A stretch of 64,000 bases of DNA from Paludibacter sp. (GTDB taxonomy: Bacteria > Bacteroidota > Bacteroidia > Bacteroidales > Paludibacteraceae): NCBI GenBank assembly GCA_023666945.1, contig JAMPAY010000001.1, forward strand, positions 1 through 64,000, given 5' to 3'. Each line of letters opens with the position of its first letter. Within the stretch, counting starts at the first letter, position 1. Shown here piece by piece: positions 53,040 through 56,068 of this stretch. The notes below the pieces were generated by a model, which was not told the DNA's origin, searched no databases, and saw only the letters and a list, made by a program, of their open reading frames with translations. Made by a program: the position numbers and the translations under genes.

Positions 53040-54305
53040 TTAATAACGTAACCATTTCCACAATTCAGCCCAAGAAGGTTTCTTTCCATACATAAGAATT
53101 CCCGTACGATAGATTTTTCCCGCCAACCAAGTACTCCCCACAAAAGAAACTATAAGGATGAAGATCGAAAGCCCTATTTCCCACCACGCCACATCAAAAG
53201 GCAGACGCACCAACATCACGATAGGCGAAGTAAAGGGAATCATAGAACACCAGAAAGCCAAAGGTCCATCGGGATTCTGCGCACTATAGATGGCCGCATA
53301 CATTGCAAAAACGATGGGTATAGTAAGAATCAACGAAAACTGTTGGGTATCCGTTTCGTTGTCAACTGCAGAGCCAAATGCAGCAAAGAAAGACGCATAC
53401 AACAGATAGCCACAAAGAAAATACACCACAAACAACACCAACAGACTCGGGACATCCACCGCTTGCAAAGCCTTCAGCAATTCTATAGTATCACTACCAG
53501 CCGCCATTGCACTGTCCGCACCGGAGGAAACCATTGGGAGTACCACTCCAAAACAGAAGGTCAACAAGACAACCCACAAAAAGAACTGCGTAAGCCCCAC
53601 CAATGCTATTCCTATAATCTTACCCATCATCAGTTGGAACGGGCGCACAGATGAGACCATAACTTCCATAATACGATTGGACTTTTCCTGTACCACCCCC
53701 GACATCACTTGCGCACCATATAAAACAATAAACATATAGATCAAGAAAGCCGACAACATTCCGACCACTTCTGCCAATTCAGCAGAACCCTGCTTTTCTT
53801 CATCGTTATCGCCCCACTTAATAGTCGTTATCGGCACTTCTGTTTGCACATCACGAATAATCTGCGACAAATCGGGAATATTATAGTCATCCAACTTCTG
53901 CTGTTCCACGAATTTTCCCAACGTACTCCGCAAATATGCCATCATTTCCACGTTAGCCTGTTTATCGGAATAATAGATTACATTGCCTTCCGGTTTCGCA
54001 AGATTTCCTGTTATACAAAGAAATCCTGTAACATCCGTATATTCCGTCCGAGCCTCCGTCAAACTATCTTCCGTATAGATAAAATGAAAGGCAGCCGTAT
54101 CTGCAAATACCGAACGATACAATCCAGACGAATCGATAACAACCACAGTTCTCTGCGTATCGCTCTTTGCCTGCGAGAGCAAAATCGGCAACGCGACAAT
54201 TCCTACCAACAGCAATGGAGTTAACAGAGTAAGCAGTATAAACGATTTTTTACAGACACGCGTTTTATACTCGCGTCCGATGATAAGGGCTATTTTTGAT
54301 TGCAT
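53040..54305 (-). CDS. ABC transporter permease (NatB-like)
   Basis: This 421-residue permease has one N-terminal helix (about 20-42), a large external domain (about 43-185) and five or six C-terminal helices, with the ABC-2 motif QEKSNRIMEVMVSSVRPFQLMMGKI in parts. It resembles NatB, the sodium-efflux permease. It overlaps the ATPase gene by 16 bp, so the two form one exporter. The substrate is not known. Confidence 0.87.
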   Translation of the reverse strand: MQSKIALIIGREYKTRVCKKSFILLTLLTPLLLVGIVALPILLSQAKSDTQRTVVVIDSSGLYRSVFADTAAFHFIYTEDSLTEARTEYTDVTGFLCITGNLAKPEGNVIYYSDKQANVEMMAYLRSTLGKFVEQQKLDDYNIPDLSQIIRDVQTEVPITTIKWGDNDEEKQGSAELAEVVGMLSAFLIYMFIVLYGAQVMSGVVQEKSNRIMEVMVSSVRPFQLMMGKIIGIALVGLTQFFLWVVLLTFCFGVVLPMVSSGADSAMAAGSDTIELLKALQAVDVPSLLVLFVVYFLCGYLLYASFFAAFGSAVDNETDTQQFSLILTIPIVFAMYAAIYSAQNPDGPLAFWCSMIPFTSPIVMLVRLPFDVAWWEIGLSIFILIVSFVGSTWLAGKIYRTGILMYGKKPSWAELWKWLRY

Positions 54306-55174
54306 ACAGTTTGAATAAATATATCATTCATACGCGGAAGGATTTCTTCAAACGCAACTATCTCGGCGGTTTCCGCAAGTTGTTTCAGCAGTTGACTATT
54401 GGTCTGCGAAGATTCTTTTTGTACTACATATTCGTACACACCTCCTTTAGTATTTAGAGGAGTATATTCAGGCAAAGCATTTCGCGTAAGCAAGCGGAAC
54501 AAATGCGTCTTATACATTTCCCTTATAGCAGCCACTTCCCCTTGCAGCACTATACGCCCATGATTGATAAGAGAAATTTCCCGGCAAAGTGTTTCTACCG
54601 ACTCCATATTATGCGTACTCAAAATAACCGTAGTACCCTCCCTGTTCAAGCGAAGCACTTCTTGCCGGATTTGTTCCGCATTAACGGGATCAAATCCCGA
54701 AAAAGGTTCATCTAAAATCAACAATTCCGGGCGATGAATGACCGTTGCCACAAACTGCACTTTCTGCGCCATTCCCTTGGACAATTCTTCGATTTTCTTA
54801 TCTCTCCAGTCACCTATATCAAAGCGGTCGAACCACTGTCTCATCTCCAGTTCCGCATCGTGGCGCGACAGTCCCTTAAGGCGTGCCAAATACAGCACCT
54901 GTTCCCCCACCTTCATCTTCTTATATAACCCACGTTCCTCCGGCAGATAGCCAATATGCGCTGCATCTCTCAACGTAATGCACCGTCCACTCAGCAATGC
55001 ACTTCCGCTATCAGGAGCAGTAATACCATTAATAATACGAATGAGTGTGGTTTTTCCCGCTCCATTAGGTCCCAACAAACCGTAGACCGTACCCTGCGGT
55101 ACCACAAGCGACACATCATCCAATGCCCGCTGCTGCCCAAAAGATTTGTCTACATGTTCTACTTGTAACAACAT
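54290..55174 (-). CDS. ABC transporter ATP-binding protein (NatA-like)
   Basis: This protein of about 294 residues has Walker A GPNGAGKTTLIRII, signature motif ELSKGMAQKVQF, Walker B LLILDEPFSGFDP and switch His in ILSTHNME. The C-terminal extension is typical of NatA/YhaQ proteins. The frame is open to 55276, but a promoter (55193-55223) lies in that extension, so the start is the ATG at 55174. It exports an unknown substrate with the permease encoded next to it. Confidence 0.9.
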   Translation of the reverse strand: MLLQVEHVDKSFGQQRALDDVSLVVPQGTVYGLLGPNGAGKTTLIRIINGITAPDSGSALLSGRCITLRDAAHIGYLPEERGLYKKMKVGEQVLYLARLKGLSRHDAELEMRQWFDRFDIGDWRDKKIEELSKGMAQKVQFVATVIHRPELLILDEPFSGFDPVNAEQIRQEVLRLNREGTTVILSTHNMESVETLCREISLINHGRIVLQGEVAAIREMYKTHLFRLLTRNALPEYTPLNTKGGVYEYVVQKESSQTNSQLLKQLAETAEIVAFEEILPRMNDIFIQTVCNQK

Positions 55175-55192: not shown

Positions 55193-55223
55193 CAAAAGTA
55201 CTACTATTTTTTTGTTGATACAA
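55193..55223 (-). promoter_or_regulatory. promoter of the ABC exporter operon
   Basis: On the minus strand, TTG (55221-55223) and TACTTTTG (55193-55200) have a 20-bp spacer, less than 20 bp from the ATG at 55174. Confidence 0.8.
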
Positions 55224-55311
55224 GTTTCGGCTAAGATAAAGACAGATACGGTGATTTGAGGCGTAAAATCGAACAAGAAATCGTTTTTTTACAAAATGAT
55301 AGTTCGACAAG

Positions 55312-55355
55312 GTCTCGTCGAAGTCTCGTTACCGTCCCGTTATGGTCTCGTAAGA
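55312..55355. repeat. four tandem 11-bp repeats with a GTCTCGT core
   Basis: GTCTCGT, GTCTCGT, GTCCCGT and GTCTCGT start at 55312, 55323, 55334 and 55345, each followed by four variable bases. A 7-bp core plus a 4-bp spacer gives exactly one helical turn per unit, the layout of binding sites for OmpR/PhoB-type winged-helix regulators. It lies about 90 bp upstream of the exporter -33 element. Confidence 0.7.
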
Positions 55356-55643
55356 AAATTTTACCTGCAAATAACTTTGAGCGCAAGACAAAAACAAATT
55401 GCTCAAGAAAAATACTTTTATTTTATAAAGAAAAGTATCATTTAGACAAATAAAGCAGGATAAAATAACTCTGCCGGTTTACGAGAATTGCAATAAGCAC
55501 AAATACCGAGGGTATCAGGGCACCAAACGGTACATATACAGTATTCAACATTCAATTTACATTGCAAAATATGGTGCATGATTGAAAGTTTCGTCATAGA
55601 ATATTGTACCTTCACAAAAAAAAGAGAATAAAGACCATAAAAA

Positions 55644-55677: not shown

Positions 55678-55681
55678 CCAG

Positions 55682-55765
55682 TGCGCAGGATGAGACTCGA
55701 ACTCACACGATCTTGCGACCACTACCCCCTCAAAGTAGCGTGTATACCAATTTCACCACCTGCGC
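55682..55765 (-). tRNA. tRNA-Leu (anticodon GAG)
   Basis: An 84-nt class II tRNA with acceptor GCGCAGG/CCTGCGC, anticodon stem CTACT/GGTAG around TTGAGGG (anticodon GAG), a long variable arm and T arm with GTTCGAG. It is the last of three tRNAs read from one promoter. Confidence 0.93.
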
Positions 55766-55859
55766 ATAATCAGGAAATATCTGATCCTAAAAGACCTAAA
55801 TCCAATTGGAATCATTTTATTTCCTTTTCATCAAAATAAAACACCATTTTCTTCCCCGG

Positions 55860-55941
55860 TGCCCGGAACAGGACTCGAACCTGCACGTCTCTCAACACTC
55901 GCACCTGAAACGAGCGCGTCTACCAATTCCGCCATCCGGGC
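55860..55941 (-). tRNA. tRNA-Leu (anticodon CAG)
   Basis: An 82-nt class II tRNA with acceptor GCCCGGA/TCCGGGC, anticodon stem CTCGT/GCGAG around TTCAGGT (anticodon CAG), a long variable arm and T arm CAGG-TTCGAGT-CCTG. It is the middle gene of the array. Confidence 0.93.
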
Positions 55942-55995
55942 AAAGTCTCTCATTAAGAGAAAAAACGCAGAACCACTGTCCTGCACCTTGGCTTG

Positions 55996-56068
55996 AGCGG
56001 AAAACGGGACTCGAACCCGCGACCCCAACCTTGGCAAGGTTGTGCTCTACCAACTGAGCTATTTCCGC
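55996..56068 (-). tRNA. tRNA-Gly (anticodon GCC)
   Basis: A 73-nt cloverleaf with acceptor GCGGAAA/TTTCCGC, D arm GCTCAGTTGGTAGAGC, anticodon stem CAACC/GGTTG around TTGCCAA (anticodon GCC) and T arm GCGGG-TTCGAGT-CCCGT. It is first in the array. Confidence 0.94.

Follow-up and report, generated by a model that had tools for sequence, protein, structure and literature searches.

Direct repeats that recur every 11 bp have been described in PHO boxes and OmpR/PhoB-type sites, in which a 7-bp core is followed by a 4-bp spacer, with TCACAGC-N4 in M. tuberculosis and 11-bp GTTCACC repeats in S. coelicolor (excerpted text of PMC9019756). For BldC sites, a title in the reference list of that paper points to cooperative multimers on direct repeats. 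CarH operators consist of three or four tandem 11-bp direct repeats that are bound by a tetramer, carry the motif TnnACA (nnnnTnnACAn) and overlap the -35/-10 region (PMC9304148, in extract). Within the Bacteroidales, the BrickBuilt elements of Porphyromonas gingivalis are dispersed and intergenic and have a tandem repeat core with a leader and a tail, as well as small inverted ends. Many of their copies are degenerate, their host range is limited, and the authors of the study suggest a mobile promoter role; judged by sections of PMC4596501, they are the nearest published case to the element described below. Among the titles listed from the open-licence literature, none on 11-bp tandem repeats in Bacteroidetes, Bacteroidales or Prevotella, on MITEs and promoters in Bacteroidales or on intergenic 11-bp repeats describes such a system.

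The array studied here lies in a 64,000-nucleotide stretch of a Paludibacter sp. genome, hereafter the window, between an ABC exporter ATPase gene on the minus strand and three minus-strand tRNA genes (Table 1). It reads GTCTCGT-CGAA-GTCTCGT-TACC-GTCCCGT-TATG-GTCTCGT, and the original prediction, made from the letters alone, described it correctly as four cores at exact 11-bp steps, one of which (the third) is GTCCCGT. When at most three mismatches are allowed, the four-core pattern has a single match in the 64-kb window and no match in any of 100 dinucleotide shuffles, and the 7+4 layout, which had been likened to Pho boxes, agrees with the PHO boxes published in the excerpt of PMC9019756. 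The complete promoter that had been placed downstream of it is also present, with a -7 box that fits the consensus TAnnTTTG (as given in part of PMC7366714) and the TTG of a -33 region, but the distance to it, previously put at about 90 bp, measures 112 bp from the near edge of the array to the -7 box.

In contrast to a PHO box, the array is made up of four units after a conserved header, is carried by a dispersed element, is separated from the downstream -7 box by more than 100 bp, precedes unrelated target genes, and is not conserved at the orthologous ABC promoter of a relative. Unlike the CarH repeats in the extract, it has no ACA on either strand and keeps clear of the promoter. The element shares with MITEs its many short, non-coding dispersed copies. 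It differs from BrickBuilt, whose repeats are 23 nt long and variable in number (1 to 22.8, in 19 copies), in its 11-bp units; BrickBuilt ends read GAGACC... and those found here CAGGGCAACC, and the available sections of PMC4596501 report no fixed distance of BrickBuilt to host promoters.

Table 1. Positions of the array, its surroundings and related elements (window coordinates unless a contig is given).
Feature	Position	Strand	Basis or remark
Four 11-bp direct repeats (GTCTCGT + 4 variable bases)	55312..55351	+	Sequence reading, pattern scan
Header TTTACAAAATGATAGTTCGACAAG (family consensus TTGACANAATGANANNTCGACRAG)	55288..55311	+	1 mismatch in the window copy
Weakly conserved block preceding the header	55271..55287	+	Pairwise identity 0.42 vs 0.30 further left
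Conserved tail	55352..55452	+	Pairwise identity 0.47-0.50 vs 0.28 beyond; 26-copy alignment
AT-rich inverted repeat within the tail, ATACTTTT / AAAAGTAT	55412-55419 / 55431-55438		
ATTTAGACAA within the tail	55440-55449	+	
-7 box TACTTTTG of the ABC gene promoter	55193..55200	-	Fits consensus TAnnTTTG
TTG of the -33 region	55221..55223	-	20 bases before the -7 box; sequence reading
ABC exporter ATPase gene	54290..55174	-	ATG at 55174; DrrA/GldA-like, below every curated cut-off shown
ABC permease gene	53040..54305	-	Weak SagH-family match
Three tRNA genes	55681-56068	-	
134-136-bp element, L264	C8:520		
134-136-bp element, L265	C8:28980-29114		
134-136-bp element, L267	C2:11023-11158		
134-136-bp element, L271	C21:22318-22451		
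134-136-bp element, L273	C5:2103		
Arrays of genome G122 at 86-bp spacing			Loci L226, L232, L236, L242, L244

The array is very probably one of about 50-60 copies of a lineage-specific, mobile-like dispersed element of about 300 bp. The scan for further repeats that the original prediction had proposed returned 114 matches to GTCTCGT-N4-GTCTCGT (at most one mismatch; 63 forward and 51 reverse) in this 2.08-Mb draft genome of 28 contigs, compared with one match for the reversed control pattern. The first 100 matches listed form about 49 arrays, giving about 50 arrays in the genome and a density of about one per 40 kb, on both strands. In 46 loci that were found by the array alone, so that the header played no part in their choice, a 24-base header directly precedes the array in 45 (at most six mismatches of 20), while control positions 1 kb away gave best scores of 9-13 mismatches.

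A total of 59 regions including the window, namely array-found stretches and ten places located from the header alone, were examined. Of the 55 raw hits that they gave, three proved spurious and were discarded (L048 minus strand, 56887 in the window and L070 minus strand), which left 52 elements for analysis; L032, L046, L068, L071, L074 and L075 fell outside the filter, and the L070 header (plus strand, with a degenerate array) was left out along with its dropped hit. Unit 4 is the last one in 32 of the 52 copies, whereas 13 arrays stop earlier and seven run on further, and the linkers are position-specific across the arrays of this genome. In an alignment of 26 of the 52 copies (A1), pairwise identity is 0.76 in the header and 0.82 in the array, compared with 0.42-0.50 in the body next to them and 0.28-0.30 outside the element, the array value being inflated because most loci were picked by their array, and the header value less so. 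Conservation is much stronger in header and array than elsewhere in the element. Flanks are homologous between some copies (L027 and L052 share 258 bp at 74%), and the right tails score at least 30 in 85 of 1176 pairs, compared with 1 of 1176 in shuffles. The header, the shared body and the homologous flanks and right tails therefore indicate that the copies descend from one dispersed element. The four units originally delimited stand, but the conserved header and a tail reaching to about 55450 had been overlooked.

Several other descriptions of the copies were set aside. The header was dropped as the outer end of the element, conserved sequence having been found beyond it. A simple minisatellite was reported at the window copy by neither a custom tandem finder nor TRF, both of which missed the array because its linkers differ. 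For an RNA reading, RNAalifold on the 26 copies gave zero consensus pairs, and an Rfam scan of the window found only tRNAs. Two array copies at contig ends, L021 (start of C9) and L056 (end of C28), terminate in an identical stretch of 38 bases; it is therefore probable that the elements interrupt the assembly, and a single locus may have been counted twice.

Information on the ends of the element comes from the motif TTTGATGCGGTTGCCCTG, which occurs (at most two mismatches) at 15 places in the genome. A -7 box lies exactly 59 nt from its first base at ten of these, at 65 nt at one and at 48 nt at another; the remaining three have no -7 box on that side, two belonging to elements counted at their other end and the third having a box at 60 nt there. 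At five places, the motif forms both inverted ends of a separate 135-bp element. This second dispersed element measures 134-136 bp, has 18-bp inverted ends (CAGGGCAACCGCATCAAA), and each copy carries a -7 box 59, 60 or 65 nt from one end (Table 1). The copy L265 is flanked by a perfect 10-bp direct repeat (AAATAAAAAG), as would be expected of a transposed element, and the repeat around another copy is imperfect.

Among the array elements, the end motif is found at the left side in L014, L027, L077 and L047 (elsewhere in L047) and at +212 in L029 and L025, in each case scoring above all 99 controls (maximum score 11.3), with weaker matches at the usual left position in L051, L042, L041, L052 and others. 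None of the array copies has both ends, which is why no target duplication is seen for the array element. On this inverted-end evidence we call the element, which is about 300 bp long, MITE-like and putatively mobile. Because the ends begin with CAGGG, which would fit an ISAs1 parent, the ISAs1 transposase (NF033564) was sought, as the only family, and gave no matches in this genome; such a parent was thus not found here. At L266, L272, L276 and L277, TTTGATGCGGTTGCCCTG is likewise spaced exactly 59 nt from a -7 box, and no inverted partner was found within 200 bp; L266 probably represents the right-hand end of array element L046, and the other three look solitary. The solitary copies may be what is left of eroded elements, or else an independent activator site. 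In some array copies the end motif, in the form TTTGATGCGGTTGCCYTG, turns up in the stretch that separates header from promoter.

The copies are placed non-randomly with respect to neighbouring genes. A left-hand gene, defined as an ORF of at least 120 aa, is present for 51 of the 52 elements and points away from the element, which therefore lies upstream of it, in 45 of the 51 (P 2e-8), while the right-side genes are oriented 29 plus to 20 minus. For the left gene, a TAnnTTTG box is found 30-300 nt away in 39 of the 52 elements, 13 having none in this range. The box stands 124-128 nt from the header in 14 of 52, a number that random placement raised to at most 8 in 5000 trials, and 38 copies lack this spacing. 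In four others it stands at 99-101 nt, namely at 99 in the window copy and L019 and at 101 in L039 and L053. Neither the opposite strand nor the right side of the 52 elements shows a cluster of -7 boxes. The long distance at the exporter is thus a family property, since copies throughout the family lie upstream of promoters at a preferred spacing. The promoter may or may not be carried inside the element and have moved with it, as the spacers between header and promoter are almost without similarity (mean score 13.0, versus 11.9 in shuffled and 12.9 in far controls).

The genes downstream were named from the 30 proteins scanned, out of 46 with a reading frame, besides the ABC gene. They include recA, dnaN, topA, topB, efp, adk, hflX, prmA, nadB, pdxJ, trmO and the genes for a PPi-dependent phosphofructokinase, a rluA-type synthase and ribosomal protein L21, and no pathway or function common to these 30 proteins and the ABC gene was found.

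Comparison with relatives shows that the element itself is confined to this lineage, whereas the 11-bp habit is not. The header (at most three mismatches) has 40 matches here and three in two of 177 other genomes of the genus, no more than its reversed control. The original prediction would have been abandoned had there been neither further copies nor conservation in related genomes; copies abound in this genome, and sequence conservation is absent, as the header comparison across the 177 genomes indicates. Conservation upstream of the exporter, proposed as a further check, was not found either, as the most similar ABC ATPase gene among 40 relatives searched (81%, in genome G011, the nearest relative recognised) has no array upstream. 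Only two of 34 array-flanking genes in G011 match one of the 100 array-flanking genes here, which was judged chance level.

Exact GTCTCGT pairs are nevertheless present in 55 of the 177 other genomes (56 of 178 including this one; reversed control in six), with linkers that differ from one species to another and, along a single array, are often all alike. Other cores are found as well: exact AATCACC-N4-AATCACC pairs number 119 in G011 (reversed control 15), ten in G122 and two in this genome, and G028 has TGCTCTGGTAR arrays. In G011, loci L227-L263 comprise at least three AATCACC-N4 families with headers of their own (AAGTGCTTGAAAGC...CATATG; TTGATATCGGCTG; GGTAGCGTAAGGG). A fixed promoter spacing was absent from the nine other genomes of the genus tested except for G122 and a weak hint in G011. 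In G122, five of eight AATCACC arrays lie 86 bp downstream of a promoter that points at the array (Table 1), and these arrays are possibly a transcribed element; some loci have a possible hairpin (GGGAGAAA...TTTCTCCC) between promoter and array. In G011, three of seven right-side boxes fall within 5 bp (P ~0.02, with four sides in nine genomes tested), a hint that led us to drop the view that its arrays are wholly without promoter spacing. Moreover, 19 of 67 GTCTCGT arrays in other genomes overlap ORFs. Eight of these are translated in frame, and the six scanned lie in valS (L153, L143), murB (L175, L181), uvrB (L158) and RNase R (L176), the valS and murB arrays each occupying the same site in two species.

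In a blind sample of the genus (20 stretches of 20 kb from 17 genomes, 400 kb), 20 period-11 arrays from 11 genomes were recovered, 18 of them outside ORFs of at least 100 aa and with unit sequences unrelated to each other, together with 30 period-7 arrays; 20 stretches from six genomes of other families of the order contained one and none, respectively. The period-7 arrays in these genus stretches (L186-L205) are commoner than the period-11 arrays, and 14 of the 30 lie inside ORFs. As the 11-base arrays of relatives differ in sequence, they point to a fast-changing repeat system and not to one ordinary control site.

How the repeats arose and what they do can be explained in several ways. A purely selfish MITE-like element, in which the repeats are transposase sites or a passenger minisatellite and the nearness to promoters reflects insertion preference or tolerance, is a real if somewhat doubtful possibility. 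It would account for the inverted ends and the 10-bp direct repeat of the related 135-bp element, the lineage restriction of the header and the same-core arrays that relatives carry in frame within valS, murB, uvrB and RNase R, and BrickBuilt, the closest published case, is itself a MITE with an internal minisatellite (sections of PMC4596501). However, header and array are kept while ends and tail decay, the tight spacing to the -7 box persists where the end motif is past recognition, and no transposase was found (ISAs1 being the only family sought). A tendency of the genus to generate, by replication slippage, tandem repeats with an 11-bp unit of whatever sequence fits the dominance of periods 7 and 11 in the blind stretches (30 and 20 versus 0 and 1) and their unrelated units, but the arrays here share one header, one core and position-specific linkers and mostly end at unit 4, which makes slippage improbable.

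It is even less probable that the arrays are the operators of a classical regulon, recognised by one response regulator of the OmpR/PhoB type and spread by convergent evolution. The 7+4 direct-repeat layout and the upstream position agree with such operators, but the flanks outside the array are homologous, the header is not conserved in 177 relatives and the targets have no functional theme. Nucleoid or chromosome-organising sites, to which a density of roughly one array every 40 kb, with both strands occupied, would be suited, are very improbable, given the strong link to the promoters of one neighbouring gene and the missing sequence conservation in relatives. The operator idea leaves the homologous flanks, the lineage restriction, the missing theme and the in-gene arrays unexplained, and a mobile element is therefore favoured; a mobile element alone, in turn, leaves the better-kept header and array unexplained, and the core is therefore read as a putative binding site.

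The explanation that we prefer, though tentatively, is thus a lineage-specific, non-autonomous MITE-like element that brings a putative protein-binding site, made up of four direct repeats, to positions upstream of host promoters. That the array is a protein-binding site appears probable, and that it controls the adjacent promoters is conceivable, with rather less confidence. Several molecules of a single DNA-binding protein, for which OmpR/PhoB-like or CarH/BldC-like proteins are candidates, would occupy neighbouring repeats, and the resulting complexes, positioned upstream of RNA polymerase, might tune promoters wherever the element has inserted, so that it would act as a mobile operator. 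A bolder and rather unlikely extension is that the genus has a fast-evolving system of 11-bp arrays with cores of each species' own, and that in this genome a mobile element has inserted at a measured spacing before housekeeping promoters (the first base of one end motif standing 59 nt from the -7 box), placing a putative multi-unit protein-binding array before dozens of core genes and rewiring one lineage.

If the spacing reflects targeting or selection, the family would be an example from nature of a small bacterial mobile element that inserts next to promoters at a defined distance, and it may rewire core genes in one lineage. Since the 11-bp period stays constant while the unit sequence turns over, a testable question is what reads an 11-bp step and not a fixed sequence.
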